The translations under genes and the position numbers were made by a program. From assembly GCA_903926205.1 (NCBI GenBank), contig CAIYID010000070.1:1-64000 (forward strand): a stretch of 64,000 nucleotides of DNA, written 5' to 3'. Position 1 is the stretch's first letter; each line of letters opens with the position of its first letter. The DNA comes from an uncultured Bdellovibrionales bacterium. GTDB taxonomy: Bacteria; Bdellovibrionota; Bdellovibrionia; Bdellovibrionales; Bdellovibrionaceae. This document shows positions 49,253-62,108 of this stretch, piece after piece. The notes beneath the pieces were generated by a model. It searched no databases, was not told the DNA's origin, and saw only the letters and a program-made list of their open reading frames with translations.

Positions 49253-50227
49253 ATGACCAAAAAATCCTCAGGCGTAGATTATGAAACGGCTGGAGTCGAT
49301 ATTAAGGCTGGTGACGCCCTCGTCGAGTGGCTGCAATCAGATCAGAAACGACAGCCTCATCAAGATCGAATTGTGAGCGGAATCGGGGGTTTTGCCTCTC
49401 TTTTCAGGGTGGGTTTTCCCGAGATGAAAAAACCTTGTTTGGTGACCTGCACAGATGGTGTAGGAACAAAAGTGAAATTGGCAAGTCAGTTTAAGACCTA
49501 TCGTTCAGTGGCTCAGGATTGTGTTGCTATGTGTGTGAACGATCTTATCTGTACGGGAGGACGTCCTTTACTTTTTCTTGATTATTATGCAACAGGAAAA
49601 TTGGATCTTACAGCGGCTCAGGAATTTCTAATAGGCTTAAAGGCGGCTTGTACTGAGTCAAACTGCGCCTTAGTTGGTGGTGAGACCGCCGAGATGCCAG
49701 GTGTATATCAGGAAAATGATTTTGATTGTGCCGGCTTTGCTGTAGGCATTGTTGATGAAGATAAGGCTTTGGGACCACAGAAGGTCCAAAAAGGAGATTG
49801 TCTCATTGGAGTTTCAAGTTCAGGTTTTCACTCTAATGGTTATAGTCTGTTGCGGAAAGTTTTTGCTAATGATTTGGAGCAATGGAAGGATATTTTATTA
49901 AAGCCCACGAATTTGTACGTCAATTTGATGACAGAAATTCAAGGGCAATGTGAGCTCCATGCTGCGGCTCACATTACTGGCGGAGGAATTGAAAATATTC
50001 CTCGTGTTCTTCCAGAACACCTTCAATGGAAAAGAAAATATTGGGAATTTCCTGATGTTTTTAAAGAAGTGCAGAGACGCACCGGAATAAGTGATCAGGA
50101 GTTGAGGGAAACCTTGAACTGCGGAATTGGTTTTGTCTTTGTCGCTCCAAGTGTTGAGAAAACTAAAATTAATTCTTTGATTCTCAAACATGGCTTTGAA
50201 GGATTTGATTTAGGAGTCATGGAATGA
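49253..50227 (+). CDS. purM: Phosphoribosylformylglycinamidine cyclo-ligase PurM
   Basis: Closes the imidazole ring to AIR, step 5 of purine synthesis. TCTDGVGTKVKLA is the conserved ATP-grasp-like PurM block; HITGGGIENIPRVLP is also visible. 324 residues, slightly shorter than usual. GGGGG lies six bases before the ATG. It opens the pur operon and overlaps purN by ATGA. Confidence 0.95.
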   Translation: MTKKSSGVDYETAGVDIKAGDALVEWLQSDQKRQPHQDRIVSGIGGFASLFRVGFPEMKKPCLVTCTDGVGTKVKLASQFKTYRSVAQDCVAMCVNDLICTGGRPLLFLDYYATGKLDLTAAQEFLIGLKAACTESNCALVGGETAEMPGVYQENDFDCAGFAVGIVDEDKALGPQKVQKGDCLIGVSSSGFHSNGYSLLRKVFANDLEQWKDILLKPTNLYVNLMTEIQGQCELHAAAHITGGGIENIPRVLPEHLQWKRKYWEFPDVFKEVQRRTGISDQELRETLNCGIGFVFVAPSVEKTKINSLILKHGFEGFDLGVME

Positions 50228-50772
50228 ATCGTGGACGTTGGGCTTTATTTCTATCAGGAAGAGGTTCAACGGCACAGGCGGTGTTAGATAATTGTGCGCA
50301 ATTAAATATTCAACTCATCGTTAGCTCAAAAAAACAAAATTGGGGTCGAGCGCGGGCACGACGGTTTGGGGTGCCCTCAATTCATTTTGATAAAAATATG
50401 AGTTGGGATGATTTGCATCAGAATTTGAAAAAAGAAAAAATTGATCGTCTTTTTTTATTGGGGTTTATGAAGCTCATTCCAGAGAACTTTATTGAAAAAT
50501 GGCAAAATAAGATTCTTAATGTTCATCCAAGTTTACTTCCAAAATATCCAGGTCTTGAAGCGATGGAAAAAAGCTACCATGATCAAGCCGATATGGGTGT
50601 GACGATTCACCGAGTAACAGCAGAAATGGACTCAGGGCCCGTGGTGGCCCAAAAATTAAAATTAAAAAAAACGGAGCTTCCTTTGTTGAGTTTTGAACAA
50701 ACGCAGATTCGAATGTCTTTTTGTGAGCAAGAGCTCGTTCGTCGAGCAAGTGAAATGGAGAAATTCCTATGA
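50224..50772 (+). CDS. purN: Phosphoribosylglycinamide formyltransferase PurN
   Basis: Transfers formyl from 10-formyl-THF to GAR. The N-terminus has FLSGRGSTAQAVL, where GSN is normally found after SGxG; the central LNVHPSLLPKYPG block holds the catalytic His, and the later HRVTAEMDSGP the active Asp. The usual third catalytic residue, Asn, sits in other PurN proteins in an IxNIHPS block and here is Asn in LNVHPS. 182 residues. ATGA overlaps on both sides. Confidence 0.92.
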   Translation: MNRGRWALFLSGRGSTAQAVLDNCAQLNIQLIVSSKKQNWGRARARRFGVPSIHFDKNMSWDDLHQNLKKEKIDRLFLLGFMKLIPENFIEKWQNKILNVHPSLLPKYPGLEAMEKSYHDQADMGVTIHRVTAEMDSGPVVAQKLKLKKTELPLLSFEQTQIRMSFCEQELVRRASEMEKFL

Positions 50773-52055
50773 GCTCCAGTGGCATCCTTATTGTTTCAGC
50801 TTACGGACGAGGCCATTGGATGGCTGCGCAATTTTCACGAATGGGAATTCCAACATCGTTGATTGATGTTTCAGAAAAAATAGGTTCTTGGGTTCCTGAG
50901 GAGATCGAAGGACCTTTTGGTTTTTTTCAAGATGAAAATTTGGATGAATCTCAGGTTGAAAGGCTCTTAGAAGATGATTCTTTTCAGGAAGTAAAAAATG
51001 GATTCACACTTTGGTTAAAGTCTGGTCCGCTTGAATTGAAGGGGCCAGTGACGGCTCACCGCTTGAAACAATTGGACGTGGGCGCCCGCGTTCAAAACTA
51101 TATTTTAAATCCGAGCTATGATCAGAAACGCAAGCTTGTCCTCGCCCCATATTCAGAGAGCTGGCTTGCTCAGTTGGCTCATGCCTACGGGAGTAATGGC
51201 TTTTATCTCAATGCAGACTTTCTCGAGTGGGGAAAAGTTTCCCCTTTGTTTGCTACATTTTCTGTTCGAATGCCAAGTCGACAAGGACATCGTCGATCTT
51301 TGGATTGGTGTCGACGATTGGGTGTAAAAGTGATTGAAAAATCCATCGTTAAAGACGTTTCTTTAAGGGATCGTCGGACGATTCGTGGTTTGGAATATCA
51401 GGAAGATCAATCTGAAAAATCTCAGCACTTGGATTGTGAACAGTTGATTTGGTGCTTGTCATCTGAAGAAACGAGCATGCTTAATGCGCGTTTGTTGGAA
51501 GTCTTTTTTCCACAAGGAGTTTTAGAGTCTGAGTGGTATTGGGCTCGTTTTCGTTTGAAAATTGCCGAAGGGCACGTCCGAGACGAGTTGCCGCTTCATT
51601 CTGTGCTGATTGATGATCTTGGAAAACCCTGGACTCATGATAATTTCATTATTTTGCAGAAAACCGGATCTTCTGATTTTTTTGATGCTTGGATGAAACT
51701 TCCAACAGTGCAGAGATTTAACAAGGATTACTTAAATATGAGAGGGACTGAATTAACGGCGGTTCTTATGAATCGTTTTGTGCAGCTTAAAGTGGATGTG
51801 GCCAGTTATCCATTGGGATACGATCTCACCTATAATTCAATTGGTCCTGTTCGACAGCCACTTTATGATCCGGTCGTTAAAACACGTTGGAAATCTTCAC
51901 ATTTTCAAAATGTTTCCTTGGATTCAATCGAGCAAGGAGAAGGCTTAGGTTTGCAATATCAAATTCTTCGGCAGAAAAAAATTGTACAAAATATTGATCA
52001 GTGGTGGAAAAAGCTCCTATTGAAGAGAAATAAAAATAACGAAGTGAGGGTTTAG
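50769..52055 (+). CDS. Unknown Rossmann-like oxidoreductase in the purine operon
   Basis: A 428-residue protein without signal or membrane segments. The start (ILIVSAYGRGHWMAAQF) resembles a dinucleotide-binding strand-loop-helix with a Gly-rich loop, and the end of the second strand has acidic residues (LIDVS), as in FAD- or NAD-binding proteins. The remainder gives no family I recognise. It sits between purN and purB, coupled to purN by ATGA and 3 bases before purB. It is expected to be co-expressed with purine synthesis, but no reaction in the pathway is missing that it clearly fills. Confidence 0.7.
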   Translation: MSSSGILIVSAYGRGHWMAAQFSRMGIPTSLIDVSEKIGSWVPEEIEGPFGFFQDENLDESQVERLLEDDSFQEVKNGFTLWLKSGPLELKGPVTAHRLKQLDVGARVQNYILNPSYDQKRKLVLAPYSESWLAQLAHAYGSNGFYLNADFLEWGKVSPLFATFSVRMPSRQGHRRSLDWCRRLGVKVIEKSIVKDVSLRDRRTIRGLEYQEDQSEKSQHLDCEQLIWCLSSEETSMLNARLLEVFFPQGVLESEWYWARFRLKIAEGHVRDELPLHSVLIDDLGKPWTHDNFIILQKTGSSDFFDAWMKLPTVQRFNKDYLNMRGTELTAVLMNRFVQLKVDVASYPLGYDLTYNSIGPVRQPLYDPVVKTRWKSSHFQNVSLDSIEQGEGLGLQYQILRQKKIVQNIDQWWKKLLLKRNKNNEVRV

Positions 52056-52058
52056 CTT

Positions 52059-53345
52059 GTGATTGAACGTTATACGCGCCCAAAGATGGGTGATATTTGG
52101 AGTGTTGAAAATCGTTTTTCTAAAATGTTAGAAGTGGAAGTGGCGGTGGCAAACGCTCAGGCGGATATGAAAATCATTCCTCGAATGGCCGCGAAAGCTA
52201 TTGCAAGCAAAGGTCATTTCTCAGTCAAGCGCATTAATGAAATTGAAAAAGAAACTAAGCATGATGTGATTGCTTTTGTGAGCAGTGTCGCTGAAAAAAT
52301 TGGAGAATGGGGACGCTTTGTTCACTTCGGTATGACAAGTTCTGATGTTTTGGATACAGCTTTTAGTTTACAGGTGAAGGAAGCAGGTACTGAATTAAAT
52401 TTGAGTTTGGATTTTTTAGAGAAAAGTTTAAAAAGCCTTGCAAAAAAACATGCAGATTCTTTGTGTGTCGGAAGAACGCATGGAATGTTTGCAGAGCCCA
52501 CAACTTTTGGTTTGAAAATGTCAGGTTTTGTCTCTGAATTGGCTCGCAATCGAGCGCGAATCAATCGAGCGCTCGAACAAATGCAAATTTGTAAACTCAG
52601 TGGAGCGGTTGGTACTTATTCAGGTCAGGCCCCAGAAGTTGAGCTTCGGGTGGCAAAAAAATTGAAACTAAAAATTGAGCTTGTTGCAACACAAGTGATT
52701 CCTCGAGATCGGCATGCAGAATTACTTAATGCGGTGGCTTTATTAGGCACTCATTTAGAACGACTTTCTTTAGAACTAAGACATTTACAACGAAGTGAAG
52801 TTGCTGAAGTGACCGAAGGGTTTTCTCGTGGGCAAAAAGGCTCTTCAGCGATGCCACATAAGAAAAATCCAATTTCAGCAGAAAATATCACTGGCGCAGC
52901 AAGGCTTTTGCGTGCATACGCTCAGGCGGCGATGGAGGATGTCGCTCTTTGGCATGAACGGGACATCAGTCATTCCTCCGTTGAACGAATAATATTTCCG
53001 GATGCTTTTATTTTGGTTGATTATGCAGTTCATCGAATGGCGGTATTGATTGATGGTCTCGAGGTGCATAAAAAACAGATGCTGGAAAATATTCGAGCAT
53101 CGCAAGGACAGGTTTTTAGCTCGCAAATACTGTTGGCCTTGGTCGAGAAAGGCCTTGATCGGGAAACAGCCTATTATCATGTTCAAAGACTTTGTCATTC
53201 TCTTGGTAAAGGAGATCAGTTGCAAGAAAGACTGAGCCAAGATCTAGAATTAAAAAAGTTTTTTAAACCAAAAGAAATTTCACAGATTTTTCAAGGTGAT
53301 CGAAATAAAAAACATGTAAAAACAATCATGAAGAGGGTTTTATGA
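52059..53345 (+). CDS. purB: Adenylosuccinate lyase
   Basis: Splits SAICAR and adenylosuccinate to release fumarate. The signature GSSAMPHKKNP lies near residue 265, with the catalytic Ser in the flexible loop; TSSDVLDTAFSLQ is another family block. The start is a GTG at 52059, 3 bases after the unknown oxidoreductase. 428 residues. It overlaps purC by ATGA. Confidence 0.95.
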   Translation: MIERYTRPKMGDIWSVENRFSKMLEVEVAVANAQADMKIIPRMAAKAIASKGHFSVKRINEIEKETKHDVIAFVSSVAEKIGEWGRFVHFGMTSSDVLDTAFSLQVKEAGTELNLSLDFLEKSLKSLAKKHADSLCVGRTHGMFAEPTTFGLKMSGFVSELARNRARINRALEQMQICKLSGAVGTYSGQAPEVELRVAKKLKLKIELVATQVIPRDRHAELLNAVALLGTHLERLSLELRHLQRSEVAEVTEGFSRGQKGSSAMPHKKNPISAENITGAARLLRAYAQAAMEDVALWHERDISHSSVERIIFPDAFILVDYAVHRMAVLIDGLEVHKKQMLENIRASQGQVFSSQILLALVEKGLDRETAYYHVQRLCHSLGKGDQLQERLSQDLELKKFFKPKEISQIFQGDRNKKHVKTIMKRVL

Positions 53346-54079
53346 TAAATTCAGACGGAATGAATGCTGAAGGAAAATTGCTCTATGAAGGAAAAGCGAA
53401 GAGAGTTTTTGCCAGTGGAAAACCTCATATATTACGTGTGGAATTTAAAAATAGTTTAACCGCCTTTAATGCATTAAAAAAAGGCTCCTTTGAAAATAAA
53501 GGTCACATCAATCGAGATATCGCGAGTCTTTTGTTTCAAGAATTAAATAAAGAAGGTATTGCCTCACATTGGATTTCCAATGCCGGGGACGTCGATATGA
53601 TCGTTCACGAGGTGAAAATTATTCCATTAGAAGTTGTTGTGAGAAACACCTTAGCTGGTTCAACAGCAAAAAAATTAGGTATTGCTGAAGGAAATGTTTT
53701 AGCGAAACCTTTAGTTGAATTTTATTACAAAGATGATGCTTTGGCAGATCCATTTGTCAGTGATGATCAAATTCTCATGATGGGTATCGCTACAGAAACT
53801 GAGATTCAGGAACTTAAACTTTTAGCGCAAAAAATCAATCAAACTTTGAAACGTATATTTGCAGTGGCAGAGATCGATTTGATCGATTTTAAAGTGGAGT
53901 TTGGAAAAGATCATCAAGGACGAATTCTCCTCGCAGATGAAATCACACCTGATTGTTGTCGCCTTTGGGATATGAAGACTCAGGAAAAACTTGATAAGGA
54001 TCGTTTTCGTCGAGATTTGGGAAACATCAAAGAAAGTTATGAGGAAGTTCTTCGTCGATTGAAAGGGAAATTATCATGA
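53342..54079 (+). CDS. purC: SAICAR synthetase PurC
   Basis: Ligates aspartate to CAIR. LLYEGKAKRVFASG is the nucleotide-binding start, VEVVVRNTLAGS-like (here PLEVVVRNTLAGS) the central block, and LADEITPDCCRLWD the metal and substrate loop. 245 residues. The start overlaps the purB stop as ATGA. The purE/purK step that makes CAIR is not in the window. Confidence 0.95.
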   Translation: MINSDGMNAEGKLLYEGKAKRVFASGKPHILRVEFKNSLTAFNALKKGSFENKGHINRDIASLLFQELNKEGIASHWISNAGDVDMIVHEVKIIPLEVVVRNTLAGSTAKKLGIAEGNVLAKPLVEFYYKDDALADPFVSDDQILMMGIATETEIQELKLLAQKINQTLKRIFAVAEIDLIDFKVEFGKDHQGRILLADEITPDCCRLWDMKTQEKLDKDRFRRDLGNIKESYEEVLRRLKGKLS

Positions 54080-54327
54080 AAAATTATTTTGGTGTGAAAA
54101 TCATGCCACGAGAAGTGATATTAGATACTCAAGGTCGAGCGATTGAGCAAACCTTGCGACTCAATAAAATCCCCGTTGATGCTTGCCGAGTCGGAAAATT
54201 CATTGAGCTCGAAATTGAGGGCAGTGAAACTGATGCGTTTGCGCGTGCAACAGAAATAGCTAAATCAGTATTGCATAATCCCTTGATTGAAACTTTTGAA
54301 GTATCAAAACTTTTAGTGAGTCGCTGA
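54076..54327 (+). CDS. purS: FGAM synthase subunit PurS
   Basis: An 83-residue subunit that, with PurQ and PurL, forms the three-part FGAM synthase. The VILDTQGRAIEQTL segment and the C-terminal NPLIETFEV block are diagnostic. Its presence means the PurL here is the small type. ATGA overlap with purC and 1 base before purQ. Confidence 0.93.
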   Translation: MKNYFGVKIMPREVILDTQGRAIEQTLRLNKIPVDACRVGKFIELEIEGSETDAFARATEIAKSVLHNPLIETFEVSKLLVSR

Positions 54328-54328
54328 G

Positions 54329-54979
54329 ATGAAAAAAACTGCTGGAAAAATTGGTGTGGTTCGATTTCCTGGATCGAACTGTGACCAAGATGTGTATCAG
54401 TTTGTCGCAGAAAAGAATTACACTCCAGAATATCTTTGGCATCTCGATCATTTTGATTTGAAAGATTATCTTGCACTGCTTTTACCAGGCGGATTTAGTT
54501 ATGGTGATTATTTGAGATCCGGTGCGCTTTCCGCACGTAGTCCTGTGATGAATTCTGTCAGAGAATTTGCGAATCGTGGCGGTCCAATATTAGGGATATG
54601 TAATGGTTTTCAAGTTCTAGCTGAGTCAGGTCTACTTCCTGGAGCTTTAGTTAAAAATGCAAGGCTTCGGTTTATTGATGATTGGGTGAACTTAAAAGTA
54701 GAAAACGCTAATCCCTTTTGGGCGAAAAACTGGACGGGTGATAAAATGTATTTACCCATTGCTCATGGAGATGGACGTTACTATGCACCAGCTGATGATT
54801 TGAAAAAAATTGAGGATGGTGATCAAATTTGGCTGAGGTACGTAGAAAATCCCAATGGCTCATTGTTAAATATTGCTGGAGTTATGAATCAGAAAAAAAA
54901 TGTAGCGGGTCTTATGCCCCACCCGGAGCGTGCGATCTTTGACTGGATGGGCAGTGTTGATGGCTGGAGTTTCTTATGA
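54329..54979 (+). CDS. purQ: FGAM synthase glutaminase subunit PurQ
   Basis: Class I glutamine amidotransferase that supplies ammonia to PurL. The nucleophile is the Cys in ILGICNGFQVL; the His and Glu of the triad are in MPHPERAI. VVRFPGSNCD at the start is typical. 216 residues. It follows purS immediately and overlaps purL by ATGA. Confidence 0.95.
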   Translation: MKKTAGKIGVVRFPGSNCDQDVYQFVAEKNYTPEYLWHLDHFDLKDYLALLLPGGFSYGDYLRSGALSARSPVMNSVREFANRGGPILGICNGFQVLAESGLLPGALVKNARLRFIDDWVNLKVENANPFWAKNWTGDKMYLPIAHGDGRYYAPADDLKKIEDGDQIWLRYVENPNGSLLNIAGVMNQKKNVAGLMPHPERAIFDWMGSVDGWSFL

Positions 54980-57261
54980 ATCAAGAAAATCAAAAAATCG
55001 AACTACAAAAGCGCCTTAAACATTATCGTATTTCTGTCGCAGAATATGAAATGATAAAATCTCTTTTAGGGCGAGAGCCAAAACCAATTGAATGGCCACT
55101 TTTTTCAGCTCTTTGGAGTGAACATTGCTCTTATAAAAGTTCACGAATGCATTTGAAGAAATTTGGTAAAACACTGAATGCCTCAGTGCTTAATGCTGCC
55201 GGAGAAAATGCAGGTGTTGTTGATCTTGGGTATGACGAGCGAATTGTTTTTAAAATGGAGTCACACAATCATCCTAGTTTTATCGAGCCCTATCAAGGTG
55301 CGGCCACAGGAGTGGGTGGAATTCTTCGCGATATTTTCACGATGGGTGCGAGACCTATCGCTCTAGCAGATTATTTGTGCTTTGGCGAGATCAGCGTCAC
55401 GCCTATCGGCTTGCAGGAAACGCCCATCGGCTTGCAAAAGTCGACGGCTGGCTCCGAAACGTCTACGACTGGGAATCGAATGGGATTTTTGGTTGATGGA
55501 GTGGTTCGTGGTATTGGTGGCTATGGAAATTCCGTGGGAGTTCCCACTGTCACAGGACAAACTAATTTTGATAAATCCTATGATAAAAATATTTTAGTGA
55601 ATGCTATGGCTGTGGGACTTTTGCGTCCGGGAGAAAAAGTGGCTTTGAGTGCCGCCAAAGGCCCAGGAAATCTAGTGGTTTATGTTGGAGCTAAAACAGG
55701 CAAAGATGGTGTTCATGGTGCGGCCATGGCGAGTGAGTCCTTTGATGAAAACTCCGAAGCAAAAAAACCCAATGTTCAAATCGGGGATCCTTATTTTGAA
55801 AAACTTTTGATTGAATCTTGTCTGGAAGTTTTAAAGAAAGACTTGGTTGTTTCCATTCAAGACATGGGTGCAGCTGGATTAACAAGCTCAAGTTTTGAAA
55901 TGGCCTCCAAGGGTAATGTGGGTATGAGTTTGAAGCTTGATCAAGTTCCAATCAGAGATTCTTCCATTCAACCAGAAGAAATTTTACTCTCAGAATCTCA
56001 AGAGCGAATGCTTTTGATTTGTGAACCCAAAAAAATTCAAGTTCTTCAAAGTGAATTCGAAAAGTGGGGCTTGGACGCCGTAGTTGTTGGTGAAGTTTTA
56101 CAAGAAAGAAAAATTGAGCTTTGGTGGAAGGGTGAACTTCTGACAAGTATTGATCCTTATCCCTTGGTGGAAAATGCTCCGATGTATGATCGAACTTTTA
56201 GGGCTTGGACAGCAAAAAACAAGGTGATTGATAAATCCCAGCTACAAAATGAAGATATATCAAAGAAAAAATACACGGAAAAGTTGTTTGGTCATGTCCA
56301 ATTCACCAGTCGTAAAAACATCTATCGCCAGTATGATCAACGGGTGGGACTTAATACCGTGCGAGGAGCAGATCATGATGTGGCAATTCTAAGACTTCCT
56401 GATTCTGGACGTGCTTTGGGGGTCGCTGTTGGTTGTCGGCCTCATTTAATGAAGATGGATGCCAGAATAGGTGCTCAGGATGCCGTTTATTATCCAGCTT
56501 TGCAATTAGCACTTCGAGGCATTAAAGTGGTGGCTTTGACGGATTGTTTAAATTTTGGAAATCCGGAACGCCCAGAAATTATGTCCGAATTTGTGGCGAG
56601 TGTTGATGCGATCACGGAATCCAGTTTGAAGCTAAAAGCTCCGGTGATCAGTGGCAATGTGAGCTTTTATAATGAGACTCTGGGTGAAAATATTATTTCC
56701 ACCCCTGCGATGGGATTAGTCGGTTTGGGTCCTGAAGACGCCTCGTTTATTAATGGCGGTCAGATTCCTCAAGATGTTTTTCAACATTCAGGAAATTCAG
56801 TTTATTTAGTTTCAAGTGCAAAAGTTTTTATTGGTGAAATTTCAAAATCGCAGTTTCAATATTTTGGAGAGCCAGATTTGAATGCCTGGACAGAGTTAGT
56901 CGATGCGTTCACAGCATTGACTCGAAAAGTAGAGATTTCAGCAAGTCAGATGGTGGGTCGAGGTGGTCTTGGTTGGACTTTGGCACAAATGAGTTTAGGT
57001 AATTATGGCTATAAAGGGGCTTTTGCTATTTCATCAAATGAGCTTTGGCAAGAGACTCTTTATCAAGCGGTTTTTGAAGTGAATGAAACTGAGAGCAAAA
57101 AGTTTGAGATTTTCTTTCAGAATAATAAAATTGAATTTAAAAAAATTGGTGAAGTTCAAGCTGATATTTTAGCCTTAAATGATGGAACTTCTTTCAATTT
57201 AAAAGAATGTAAAAAATCTTATGAATTAGGATTGAGAGGCTCGATTGAAAACTTGGCGTGA
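54976..57261 (+). CDS. purL: FGAM synthase subunit PurL, with a small insertion
   Basis: ATP-dependent FGAM synthase catalytic subunit, about 761 residues (the small type that works with PurS and PurQ). SALWSEHCSYKSS, FKMESHNHPSFIEPYQG and the GVGGILRDIFTMGARP block are conserved. After LCFGEI (about residue 139) about 27 residues not found in relatives are inserted, with an imperfect 7-residue duplication, TPIGLQE and TPIGLQK. Then the normal MGFLVDGVVRGIGGYGN block resumes. This loop is at the edge of the first domain. The end overlaps purF by 17 bases. Confidence 0.95.
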   Translation: MNQENQKIELQKRLKHYRISVAEYEMIKSLLGREPKPIEWPLFSALWSEHCSYKSSRMHLKKFGKTLNASVLNAAGENAGVVDLGYDERIVFKMESHNHPSFIEPYQGAATGVGGILRDIFTMGARPIALADYLCFGEISVTPIGLQETPIGLQKSTAGSETSTTGNRMGFLVDGVVRGIGGYGNSVGVPTVTGQTNFDKSYDKNILVNAMAVGLLRPGEKVALSAAKGPGNLVVYVGAKTGKDGVHGAAMASESFDENSEAKKPNVQIGDPYFEKLLIESCLEVLKKDLVVSIQDMGAAGLTSSSFEMASKGNVGMSLKLDQVPIRDSSIQPEEILLSESQERMLLICEPKKIQVLQSEFEKWGLDAVVVGEVLQERKIELWWKGELLTSIDPYPLVENAPMYDRTFRAWTAKNKVIDKSQLQNEDISKKKYTEKLFGHVQFTSRKNIYRQYDQRVGLNTVRGADHDVAILRLPDSGRALGVAVGCRPHLMKMDARIGAQDAVYYPALQLALRGIKVVALTDCLNFGNPERPEIMSEFVASVDAITESSLKLKAPVISGNVSFYNETLGENIISTPAMGLVGLGPEDASFINGGQIPQDVFQHSGNSVYLVSSAKVFIGEISKSQFQYFGEPDLNAWTELVDAFTALTRKVEISASQMVGRGGLGWTLAQMSLGNYGYKGAFAISSNELWQETLYQAVFEVNETESKKFEIFFQNNKIEFKKIGEVQADILALNDGTSFNLKECKKSYELGLRGSIENLA
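55399..55440 (+). repeat. Two tandem 21-base units inside purL
   Basis: ACGCCTATCGGCTTGCAGGAA is followed directly by an imperfect copy (17 of 21 bases match) encoding TPIGLQE and TPIGLQK. The units and the 35 bases after them are more GC-rich than the surrounding gene. They lie in the PurL insertion. Confidence 0.8.
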
Positions 57262-58660
57262 AGAATGTGCGGTTTTTGGAGCTTGGAATCATGAAGAAGC
57301 AGCTAGATTGGCTTATCTGGGACTCTATGCTATGCAACACCGTGGGCAAGAGTCAGCTGGGATTGTTTCCTTGCATGCAGGAGAACATCGTGTTCATAAA
57401 GGTCTAGGTTTGGTCGTCGATGTCTTTAAAGAGCCAGAGTTGTGCGAGTTAAAAGGTCGAGTTTCAATCGGTCATGTTCGCTACTCGACCACTGGTGAAA
57501 ATCGCATTGTGAATGCTCAACCCATGGTGGCAGGTTTGTTGAATGGACCAGTGGCCATTGCTCACAATGGAAATTTAGTGAATGCCAAAATAATAAGAAA
57601 AAAACTTCAGGCGCAAGGAGCTATTTTCCAAGGAACCAATGATACTGAATGTGTTTTGCATCTGATTTCGCATATTTCTTCCGATGACTTCGTCACTTCC
57701 GTGAAGTCGGTTTTACCTCAGCTAGAAGGCGCTTTTAGTTTTGTTTTTCTGTCTCATCGAGAAATGGTGTGCGTTCGAGATCGTTATGGATTTCGTCCTT
57801 TAGTTCTAGGAAAAAAGAAAAATGATCAAGGTGAAGATGCTTGGGTTGTGGCCAGTGAGACCTGTGCTTTTGATTTAATAGATGCTCAGTACGTGCGTGA
57901 AATTGAACCTGGTGAAATTTTTTGGGTGGATGAAAAAGGAGCGCATTCAGAAAAATGGACACATTCGATACATTCAGCAAAATGTGTCTTTGAACATGTG
58001 TATTTTTCGCGTCCTGATTCAGTGGTTTTTGGTCAAAGTGTTTATGAGTCGCGGAAAGCCTTTGGCCGATGGTTAGCAAAAGAAAGTGGAGTGGCTGCAG
58101 ATGTTGTTATTCCAGTTCCTGATAGTGGAGTGCCTGCGGCAATTGGTTATTCAGCTGAAAGTGGAATCCCTTTTGAGTTTGGAATAATTCGAAATCATTA
58201 TGTGGGGCGAACTTTTATTCAACCGCATCAATCCGTCAGAGATATTGGAGTTAAAATTAAGTTGAACCCTCAACGAGCTGTTTTATCAGGTAAAAAGGTG
58301 ATTGTAGTGGATGATTCTTTGGTCAGAGGAACCACCTCTCAAAAAATTGTTCGATTGATTCGTCAAGCGGGAGCTAAGGAGATTCATGTGAGAATCGCCA
58401 GTCCTCCCACAGTAGGACCCTGTTACTATGGAGTCGACACTCCGCAAAAATCCCAATTGATCGCAGCACATCAAAGTCTGGAAGAAATTAGAGCTTTTAT
58501 CGAGGCAGACAGCTTGGCCTACCTCTCTCTGGATGGTCTTTTTTCAGCCGTGGGCGAAGGTCGAGAAGAAGGTCGAGAAAATAACGCTCTAAAAAATAAA
58601 GAAAAATCTTACTGTGCAGCTTGTTTCAATGGGGAATATCCGACACCCTTATTTGAGTAG
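57245..58660 (+). CDS. purF: Amidophosphoribosyltransferase PurF
   Basis: First committed step of purine synthesis: PRPP to phosphoribosylamine. The start is TTG at 57245 with AGAGG five bases upstream, giving seven residues before Cys8 (EECAVFG), the nucleophile exposed after processing. VRYSTTGENRIVNAQP is the glutaminase channel and IVVDDSLVRGTTS the PRPP loop. Two Cys near the C-terminus (CAAC) resemble the Fe-S-type end. 471 residues. It is the last pur gene. Confidence 0.94.
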   Translation: MKTWREECAVFGAWNHEEAARLAYLGLYAMQHRGQESAGIVSLHAGEHRVHKGLGLVVDVFKEPELCELKGRVSIGHVRYSTTGENRIVNAQPMVAGLLNGPVAIAHNGNLVNAKIIRKKLQAQGAIFQGTNDTECVLHLISHISSDDFVTSVKSVLPQLEGAFSFVFLSHREMVCVRDRYGFRPLVLGKKKNDQGEDAWVVASETCAFDLIDAQYVREIEPGEIFWVDEKGAHSEKWTHSIHSAKCVFEHVYFSRPDSVVFGQSVYESRKAFGRWLAKESGVAADVVIPVPDSGVPAAIGYSAESGIPFEFGIIRNHYVGRTFIQPHQSVRDIGVKIKLNPQRAVLSGKKVIVVDDSLVRGTTSQKIVRLIRQAGAKEIHVRIASPPTVGPCYYGVDTPQKSQLIAAHQSLEEIRAFIEADSLAYLSLDGLFSAVGEGREEGRENNALKNKEKSYCAACFNGEYPTPLFE

Positions 58661-58667
58661 GTGAAAT

Positions 58668-59612
58668 ATGGTAAAATGGGAAAAGTTACAGCCGGGCGAC
58701 GTGATTGATATTATTGCTCCTGGTTATCCAACAAAACCGGAAATTATTGAGGCGGGAAAAATTATTTTGCAAGAGCGAGGCTATATTCCTCGAGTTCCTG
58801 CTGATATTTTGTCGCCACAATTTTTTCATTCAAATTCTGATGAAGCACGTTTTGCACAAGCGAAAAAAGCTTTGCTCGCAAAAGATTCGAAAGCTATTTG
58901 GTGTTTACGCGGAGGTTATGGCTCCAATCGACTATTGCCCGAATTAGCAAAAATAAAAAAACCAAATCGTGCGAAAATTTTCATTGGAATTAGCGATGTC
59001 ACTTCGCTTCATTTATTTTTGAACCAAAATTGGAAGTGGTGCACATTGCATGCAACACTTTTGGATCGATTAGCAGAAAATCGAATTGATGCGGTTTTAG
59101 CGCAAGAAATTTTTGATATTATTAACGGCAAAAAACATGAAATGCTTTTCACCGGCTTAAAACCTCTGAACGCGCGAGCAGAGAAAACTAAAAAACACCA
59201 GGCAAGAATAGTTGGTGGAAATTTAACGACTTTGCAATGTTCAATAGGAACTCCATGGGCTCTAAAAACAAGTGGAGAATTTTTATTTTTAGAAGATCTT
59301 GGGGAACGTGGTTATCGTATCGATCGAATGCTGGTGCATTTGAAACAGGCCGGTCGATTGAAAAACTGTGAAGGTATCTTACTTGGTCATTTCACCGGCG
59401 GAGACGAGCCTCTTAGTCCTGAAGGAACCACATCCAACCGTGTGCATGAAGCTTTGCAAAGATTTGCAGATGAAAATCCAAATTTACCTGTTTGGTCTGG
59501 GATTGAATCTGGTCACGGTGAACTTCTACGCACTTTGCCTTTTGGGACACCCGCCACCATCGTTCAAAAAAATGGAGAAATTTCATTGAACGTTGAAACA
59601 GGTAGTCGATGA
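58668..59612 (+). CDS. LD-carboxypeptidase (S66 family)
   Basis: A 314-residue serine peptidase that removes the terminal D-Ala from murein tetrapeptide in peptidoglycan recycling. The nucleophile Ser86 lies in RGGYGSNR, the Glu in LEDLGERGYRID, and the His in ESGHGE. No signal peptide, so cytoplasmic like LdcA. It begins 7 bases after purF and overlaps the next gene by ATGA. Confidence 0.9.
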   Translation: MVKWEKLQPGDVIDIIAPGYPTKPEIIEAGKIILQERGYIPRVPADILSPQFFHSNSDEARFAQAKKALLAKDSKAIWCLRGGYGSNRLLPELAKIKKPNRAKIFIGISDVTSLHLFLNQNWKWCTLHATLLDRLAENRIDAVLAQEIFDIINGKKHEMLFTGLKPLNARAEKTKKHQARIVGGNLTTLQCSIGTPWALKTSGEFLFLEDLGERGYRIDRMLVHLKQAGRLKNCEGILLGHFTGGDEPLSPEGTTSNRVHEALQRFADENPNLPVWSGIESGHGELLRTLPFGTPATIVQKNGEISLNVETGSR

Positions 59613-60664
59613 GACAATCTGTTTTTGAAGAAAGATTAACAAAACAAATTCGTGAAAGTTTGCCTGGAGCTGCCCCTGGTGTGATGGTGCAAATCTATCA
59701 AAATGGACGAAAAGTCTGTGATATTGCTGTGGGCGACACTTATGCCTATTATGATTTAGCCTCACTCACTAAAATTATTTTCACCACTCAAGCGATGATA
59801 AAATCATTTTCAGAAGGTAAGTGGAATTCAACGACCAAAGTCAGAGACATTTTAAAGTGGTTTCCTCATGAAGAAACTTTAGTCACTGATCTTCTTAATC
59901 ATTCGAGTGGACTCGTGTGGTGGCTGCCATTTTATAAAGATATTGATTTAAATTTGAGCCATGAAGATCGTTGGAAAAAATTGCAAGAAATGATTGAGAA
60001 AGCTCCTTTGGAAAAACAAGAAAATAGTGTTTATTCTGATGTGGGTTTTCTTGTTTTGACCTATTTTTTGGAAGAAATTTACCAAAAGCCCTTGATTGAA
60101 ATATGGAATGAGTTGAAAGAATTTTTTTATCCACGATTGTCTTTCGAGTTTCATCCGGACAATAAACCAAAGTTTTCTTCAAAACTTTATGCTCCGACGG
60201 AAAAATGCCCTTGGCGAGGCCGAGTGATTCAAGGTGAAGTGCATGATGAGAATAGTTGGGCCTTAGGAGGAGTTACGACTCACGCCGGACTTTTTGGAAG
60301 TGTGGATGATGTGGGTTGGTTTGGACTTTTTATTCGAGGTCAACTGCAAGGAATTTCTCGTACTTTGATCAAACAAAAAACGGCACAATATTTTGCTCAA
60401 AGATCTTTGCGTTTAGGTAAAGGAGATTGGGCTTTGGGTTATATGATGCCAACCCGAGGACAGTCGAGTTCTGGTGACTATTTCTCTCCTTACTCCATTG
60501 GACACACGGGATTTACTGGGACAAGTTTCTGGTATGATCCCGCACAGGATTTAGTGGTTGTTATTCTTTCAAATCGATTGGCCTTCGGACGAGAGATTGA
60601 AGACTTTAAAAAAATGCGTCCGCAAATTCATAACTGGATTGTTGAAGGACTGAGGCGGAGTTAA
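59609..60664 (+). CDS. Serine hydrolase of the beta-lactamase/PBP4B-like family
   Basis: A 351-residue protein with the SxxK motif SLTK at 52-55 (nucleophile Ser52), the second motif in NHSSGLVWW and an HTG variant of KTG (GHTGFTGTSFW). No signal peptide is visible, so it should be cytoplasmic, unlike most relatives. Place between the LD-carboxypeptidase and Mpl suggests a role in peptide cleavage during wall recycling (inference). It overlaps the previous gene as ATGA. Confidence 0.78.
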   Translation: MRQSVFEERLTKQIRESLPGAAPGVMVQIYQNGRKVCDIAVGDTYAYYDLASLTKIIFTTQAMIKSFSEGKWNSTTKVRDILKWFPHEETLVTDLLNHSSGLVWWLPFYKDIDLNLSHEDRWKKLQEMIEKAPLEKQENSVYSDVGFLVLTYFLEEIYQKPLIEIWNELKEFFYPRLSFEFHPDNKPKFSSKLYAPTEKCPWRGRVIQGEVHDENSWALGGVTTHAGLFGSVDDVGWFGLFIRGQLQGISRTLIKQKTAQYFAQRSLRLGKGDWALGYMMPTRGQSSSGDYFSPYSIGHTGFTGTSFWYDPAQDLVVVILSNRLAFGREIEDFKKMRPQIHNWIVEGLRRS

Positions 60665-60665
60665 C

Positions 60666-62108
60666 ATGAATATTTCTGATTTAAAACCTGGTTCTAGAGT
60701 GCACTTAATGGGAATTTGTGGAACAGCGATGGCTTCTTTGGCGGGGTTATTGAAAGAGCTTGGCTTTGAAGTCACAGGAAGCGAGCTTAATCCTTATCCG
60801 CCAATGTCCACTCAGATTGAACAAATGGGAATTCAAATTTTGAAGCCTTACTCTGCAAAAAATTTGCACCAAGAGAATTCCTCAGGAAATCCGATACGGC
60901 CAGATTTTGTCGTCGTGGGGAATGTTATTTCTGCCAATAACGAAGAGGCGCAAGAACTTGTGCGTTTGGATATTCCCTACACCAGTTTGCCACAAGCGAT
61001 GGGTGATATTATGATCGCCCATCGTCAGTCGATTGTTATTACAGGGACACACGGGAAGACCACGACCACTTCTTTAGCTGCCTGGGTCGCCACTGAGTTA
61101 GGATTAAATCCTGGATTTCTTATTGGTGGAATTGCAAAAAATTTCTCCAAATCTTTTCAAGTTCCAAAAGGAAATTATTTTATAATAGAAGGCGACGAAT
61201 ACGATACCGCTTATTTTGATAAAGTTCCGAAGTTTTTGCATTACAAACCAAAGCACGTGATTTTATCGAGCATTGAGTTTGATCATGCTGATATCTACAA
61301 AGATCTAGACGCCGTTAAAGCATCATTTTTTAAACTGATGGGGCTAATTCCTAAAGATGGGACTCTTATTTATTGTGCGGAAGATTCCAATGTCGAAGAA
61401 GTGGCTGAAACTTGTCACGCTAAAAATAAATTTTCTTATGGTATTTCTCGAGGACATTATCGCGCTCAAGTACTTTCAGTGACAGAAAAAAGCACAAAAT
61501 TTAGAGTGTCTGAAGAAAACATTCAGGTTGGTGAATTTGAAACTATTTTGAGTGGAGAATATAATATTCTTAATTGCACAGCGGTGATTGCGCTGGCGCA
61601 TTCTCAAAAATGGAATATGGAAAAAACCAAAGCCGCCTTGGCGAGTTTTAAAGGAGTCAAACGCCGACAAGAAATTCTTGGTGAACCCAAAGGCGTTTTA
61701 GTGATTGAGGACTTTGCTCATCATCCAACAGCGGTGCGAGAAACGTTGAAAGGCATTCGAGAGAAATACAAAGGTCGTAAAATATTTGCTATTTTTGAAC
61801 CCAGATCAGCCACCTCAAGGCGAAAAGTCTTTCAAAAAGACTATGTGGAAGCCTTTATGCAAGCGGATGAAGTGCTTATAATGAAGGCATTTGACCAATC
61901 AAAAATTGAGGAAACGGATCGTTTTTCCAGTGAAGAATTAGTTCATGATGTTTTCAAAGCAGGAAAGCCGGCTAAGTCGTTTAGCTCTGTGGATGAAATC
62001 GTAAAGAGTTTAGCGCCCCGCGTGGATAGTGGTGATTTGGTTTTAATTATGAGTAACGGTGGCTTTGACGGTATTTACGGAAAACTGATTCAAGCCATTG
62101 AAGCTTAA
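60666..62108 (+). CDS. mpl: Murein tripeptide ligase Mpl
   Basis: Joins the recycled tripeptide L-Ala-gamma-D-Glu-meso-DAP to UDP-MurNAc. MGICGTAMASLAGLLK at the start and the ATP loop GTHGKTTTT (127-135) fit Mur ligases; Mpl is chosen over MurC because of the CGTAM start, ELNPYPPMS and length 480. GGCGGAG precedes the ATG. It completes the three-gene recycling unit. Confidence 0.88.
   Translation: MNISDLKPGSRVHLMGICGTAMASLAGLLKELGFEVTGSELNPYPPMSTQIEQMGIQILKPYSAKNLHQENSSGNPIRPDFVVVGNVISANNEEAQELVRLDIPYTSLPQAMGDIMIAHRQSIVITGTHGKTTTTSLAAWVATELGLNPGFLIGGIAKNFSKSFQVPKGNYFIIEGDEYDTAYFDKVPKFLHYKPKHVILSSIEFDHADIYKDLDAVKASFFKLMGLIPKDGTLIYCAEDSNVEEVAETCHAKNKFSYGISRGHYRAQVLSVTEKSTKFRVSEENIQVGEFETILSGEYNILNCTAVIALAHSQKWNMEKTKAALASFKGVKRRQEILGEPKGVLVIEDFAHHPTAVRETLKGIREKYKGRKIFAIFEPRSATSRRKVFQKDYVEAFMQADEVLIMKAFDQSKIEETDRFSSEELVHDVFKAGKPAKSFSSVDEIVKSLAPRVDSGDLVLIMSNGGFDGIYGKLIQAIEA

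Follow-up and report, generated by a model that had tools for sequence, protein, structure and literature searches.

What is a protein with the look of a dinucleotide-binding oxidoreductase doing in the middle of a purine operon? The window analysed here, a stretch of 64,000 nucleotides of Bdellovibrionales DNA, carries between purN and purB an open reading frame (gene X) whose product had been described in a first-pass annotation as Rossmann-like, dinucleotide-binding and of no known family. PurB (adenylosuccinate lyase), a textbook enzyme, is required by nearly all cells to form AMP and is generally regarded as acting without partners. The reading of gene X that we favour, with a probability of roughly 0.45, is that it encodes a Bdellovibrionia-specific accessory protein of PurB built from a degenerate FAD fold.

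The locus and the purine gene set

The genes of the operon are arranged in the order purM-purN-X-purB-purC-purS-purQ-purL-purF (Table 1), with X present as a complete ORF between purN and purB, as first annotated, and the opposite strand full of stop codons across its entire length. The purN gene of the window is short as well as diverged. Scans for promoters and terminators inside the operon revealed nothing telling. Downstream of purF lie genes encoding an LD-carboxypeptidase, a beta-lactamase-like protein and an Mpl-like ligase, followed by mutS; the first three were assigned via matching genes in L033, a locus from another genome, and mutS was recognised by eye.

Table 1 Coordinates of the features of the locus within the window
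Feature	Position	Strand	Remarks
purM	49253..50227	+	
purN	50224..50772	+	diverged; 114 bits against an NCBIfam equivalog cut-off of 150
ATGA overlap, purN stop / X start	50769..50772	+	4 nt; from sequence and coordinates
gene X	50769..52055	+	428 aa, ATG...TAG; predicted degenerate FAD/amine-oxidase-fold protein
S-A-Y-G-R-G, residues 10-15, replacing GxGxxG after strand 1	50796..50813	+	strand 6-10, helix 16-24 (predicted)
X/purB junction, TAG-CTT-GTG	52053..52061	+	3-nt gap; purB GTG at 52059
purB, adenylosuccinate lyase	52059..53345	+	TIGR00928, 461 bits (cut-off 326)
purC	53342..54079	+	
purS	54076..54327	+	
purQ, purL, purF	54329..58660	+	

Besides the window set, the genome carries purA, purH, purD, purE, purK, guaB and purS, and purA to purF, purH, purK to purN, purQ and purS were all found. 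This complete gene set agrees with the initial remark that purine synthesis leaves no free step for an oxidoreductase. The idea that X fills a gap in the pathway was rejected, since every purine gene searched for is present.

Family, distribution and predicted fold

Searches of Pfam, NCBIfam and the sequences of the PDB produced no match to X, in line with its description as belonging to no known family, and when the PDB was searched with an X profile the best chain reached an E value of 0.06. Homologues were identified in 48 of 60 relatives by single-sequence search and in 123 of 144 Bdellovibrionia genomes, covering all 69 genera, by profile search. The profile matched nothing in ~190 genomes from the remainder of the phylum, a scan of 84,980 species with one X sequence returned nothing and none was seen in viral contigs. 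Repeating the scan of the 84,980 species with an X alignment yielded 42 loci, all of Bdellovibrionales type save for mislabelled or vaguely labelled bins. Among the genomes searched, X is found only in the Bdellovibrionia, a class of often predatory bacteria. One public bin (L175, CALQIT020000054.1) is titled Streptomyces griseus and holds a Bdellovibrionia X-purB contig; the title is evidently wrong.

On a first reading of the profile results, X appeared to have been lost from a genus of Bdellovibrio exovorus-like bacteria (g3; we take its complete genome to be that of B. exovorus). This was overturned when a shortened, diverged X was recognised at the same locus in five of the six genomes checked. 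The short form is an ORF of 315-336 amino acids, overlapping purB in most cases, and is related to X with a probability of 95% in a profile comparison that leaves its first part unaligned. In two other genomes (G048 and G022) X is lost and purB kept, indicating that PurB can work without X.

Within Bdellovibrio, X is under strong purifying selection: Ka/Ks is ~0.01-0.04 in four close pairs (Ks < 0.5), similar to the values for PurB. That X might be a chance ORF is ruled out by these ratios together with its conservation across the class.

An AlphaFold2 model of X built with 41 homologues has a mean pLDDT of 95.4 and a pTM of 0.92. Comparison of this model with known structures using Foldseek and VIA-align identifies residues 1-417 as the FAD fold of the carotenoid/phytoene desaturases, protoporphyrinogen oxidase (PPO) and the amine oxidases, the best match being to a gamma-carotenoid desaturase (4rep, Z = 18.7), with PF1083 (3nrn, Z = 18.6) and Myxococcus xanthus PPO (2ive, Z = 18.0) close behind. 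What X has in common with enzymes of the amine-oxidase/phytoene-desaturase type is the whole fold and an acidic residue after strand 2; identity, however, is ~10%, the GxGxxG motif is missing and there is no match to the family profiles. In its place, the family loop reads S-A-F/Y-G-R-G: serine replaces the first glycine in 98 of the 119 family members and an aromatic residue (F/Y/W) the second in 94, and strand 2 ends with aspartate or glutamate in 105. The canonical motif is present in two members only, both from another order of the class, where it takes the form of an intact GSGxRG. No X matches the DAO, Amino_oxidase or NAD_binding_8 profile above its cut-off; the best DAO score, from one of these distant members, is 23.0 bits (7e-5), short of the 27.9 required. 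This sub-threshold match favours an FAD oxidoreductase as the ancestor of X.

Outside the loop, conservation is highest at P49, G86, W132, E234, W258, R260, P275, N292, W308, N381 and E388 and, as far as the topology of the model allows, the conserved positions appear to surround the former cofactor and substrate cleft. The predicted fold is thus Rossmann-like, as first annotated, with a non-standard glycine motif. X has a dinucleotide fold, but with GxGxxG gone in 117 of the 119 members the terms dinucleotide-binding and oxidoreductase are doubtful, and redox catalysis by X is improbable.

That X nonetheless remains catalytically active through an atypical cofactor site, holding FAD differently or using another nucleotide, and acts on a by-product of the AMP branch or a side metabolite (such as fumarate, a damaged nucleotide or a purine carrying a succinyl group), seems to us rather unlikely. 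In favour of such an enzyme are the full predicted FAD fold, conservation around the cofactor and substrate positions of the parent fold (the strand 2 acidic residue included) and, in the two distant members, the intact GSGxRG loop, with the sub-threshold DAO match of one of them, and the conserved cofactor-position residues may mean that FAD or another cofactor is held in an unusual way; it is harder to reconcile with a bulky aromatic side chain at the second glycine, with a main family that has no sequence relation to anything in Pfam, NCBIfam or the PDB and with the truncation seen in g3.

Another member of the same fold class is the Rab GDP-dissociation inhibitor (GDI; 6c87 and 3cph, Foldseek 9e-11), in which an FAD-type fold serves as a protein-binding factor. 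GDI is a eukaryotic protein that binds Rab GTPases, however, and stands in the Foldseek list among many enzymes at comparable scores; X shows no sign of being nearer to it than to the enzymes.

Linkage to purB

X is found immediately upstream of purB in 110 of the 113 genomes where the assembly allows this to be checked. The commonest X/purB junction is a 4-nt overlap (A/GTGA), seen at 72 of ~115 loci, some genomes being counted twice. X is translated with its neighbours, as proposed at the outset, and its place ahead of purB is conserved, but it does not always lie behind purN: in family f4 it is mostly found directly after purM, with purN absent there. Exceptions to the X-purB adjacency are G129 and G130, where an insert separates the two genes, and G131, where purB is located elsewhere; in all three, X still adjoins purM. 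The insert in G130 (L111:4552-7377, reverse-complement coordinates) contains a 941-codon ORF, the start of which resembles a type IV pilin N-terminus, and in the sister genome G129 different small ORFs lie between X and purB. The operon as a whole is without purN in most of family f4.

In several lineages the flanking pur genes are missing or have moved and the X-purB pair is kept: Bdellovibrio (g7, g13), f2, part of g3, g49, g60 and g11/g16. The purM, purN and purC-F neighbours have disappeared in Bdellovibrio (g7, including G036, presumably strain HD100) and in g13 and, as a separate case, in f2 and g60, leaving X-purB with a carboxypeptidase gene directly after it. In g11/g16 (G011 and G016) the pair has been relocated behind pdxJ- and tsaE-like genes, names that were given by eye. 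Four genomes (G003, G102, G103 and G126) lack both purH and purE, the first three lacking purL also, and all four are evidently unable to make IMP de novo for this reason. Each has purB with X or its short form ahead of it, and the presence of purA was verified for G003, G102 and G103. That X-purB stays where other pur genes are lost or moved ties X to purB and AMP formation rather than to purN, formyl-THF metabolism or the de novo pathway. Homologues lying away from purine genes had been named at the outset as one half of the grounds for abandoning a link to purines; X does occur without other purine genes, but beside purB.

Where only X-purB is left, the pair is followed by LD-carboxypeptidase, beta-lactamase-like and Mpl-like (peptidoglycan recycling) genes (L033:10577-13978). 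The same three genes follow purF in the window (58668-62108), indicating that the pur genes were excised around X-purB in place. Bdellovibrio-like genomes have a second purine set elsewhere that is unlike that of the window (G036:C1:2897776-2907100, with similar sets in G025, G030, G013 and G045); it includes a purL ORF of ~1000 codons, purH and purD nearby, and purE, and appears to have replaced the ancestral operon.

In comparisons between genera the mean distance is 2.06 for X against 0.56 for PurB, a roughly fourfold difference in rate, with the X distances near saturation. With the signal from other pur genes removed, X distances correlate with those of PurB (r = 0.38, permutation p = 0.0005) and PurN (0.29, p = 0.006) and show no correlation with those of the remaining pur genes. 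As purN and purB both flank X, joint recombination of the flanking genes could be the cause.

The PurN correlation, second best of the set, and the presence of purN next to X in many genomes are what can be said for the original suggestion that X handles formyl-THF or NAD, or serves the purine pathway in some other way, as an enzyme working with PurN. We consider this very improbable: most f4 genomes have no purN beside X and the X-purB genomes none at all, the pathway has no missing step and the persistence of X without purN, or without de novo synthesis altogether, contradicts a role in formyl-THF metabolism.

Could adjacency to purB reflect expression alone? The job of X might be unrelated to PurB, with the gene kept since purB depends on translation of X and breaking the pair harms purB expression. 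The 4-nt overlaps would fit such coupling, as would the separation of X from purB in G129-G131, and there is a precedent in Escherichia coli, where a gene of other or unclear role, hflD, is likewise found directly upstream of purB and an hflD deletion mutant is restored by purB and not by hflD (PMC11963563). There, the effects of deletion are explained by purB alone, and the likeness to X drawn here is one of gene position. G048 and G022, on the other hand, retain purB after dropping X, which shows the arrangement to be breakable, in g11/g16 X is found together with purB at a different locus and the divergence of X tracks that of PurB; on balance coupling alone is a possible but unlikely explanation. 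Restoration of the hflD mutant by purB alone does mean that X knock-outs will need purB supplied in trans.

A putative accessory protein of adenylosuccinate lyase

We return, then, to X as an accessory protein of PurB. According to this model, the ancestor of X would be an FAD-dependent enzyme of the amine-oxidase/phytoene-desaturase class of oxidoreductases, whose fold was kept and whose glycine loop, the part that grips the pyrophosphate of FAD, was lost in nearly all members. Translational coupling would yield X in proportion to PurB, and X would bind PurB, or act beside it, tuning or stabilising the reaction in which fumarate is released on the way from IMP to AMP. Since conservation is concentrated where cofactor and substrate would once have sat, the old FAD cleft may continue to accommodate a small ligand, conceivably a purine nucleotide. 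A fused X-PurB model, in which the X stop codon was read through as serine, gave a pTM of 0.48 with only eight in-frame rows and yields no direct indication that the two proteins touch; a 56-row X-PurB alignment with unfused rows was dropped, as its X rows were aligned to PurB. Of the initial description of X as a regulatory or side-reaction enzyme, it is the regulatory part that we retain, redirected at PurB.

A bolder version of this model, which we put forward as speculation and think improbable as it stands, has X as a class-wide pseudo-oxidoreductase, a regulatory subunit of adenylosuccinate lyase that senses a purine nucleotide in the former FAD cleft and thereby sets the AMP branch. The often predatory bacteria of this class can live on the purines of their prey. 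To our knowledge no regulator of PurB with an FAD fold has been described, and a search of the open literature found no paper on adenylosuccinate lyase from Bdellovibrio.

A decayed flavin fold that is fixed ahead of purB in 69 genera, and is kept after the pathway around it has been lost, suggests a hidden control of AMP formation, and X illustrates clearly how a redox fold can be turned to another purpose. Bdellovibrio bacteriovorus, a model host for the family, allows these ideas to be tested directly.
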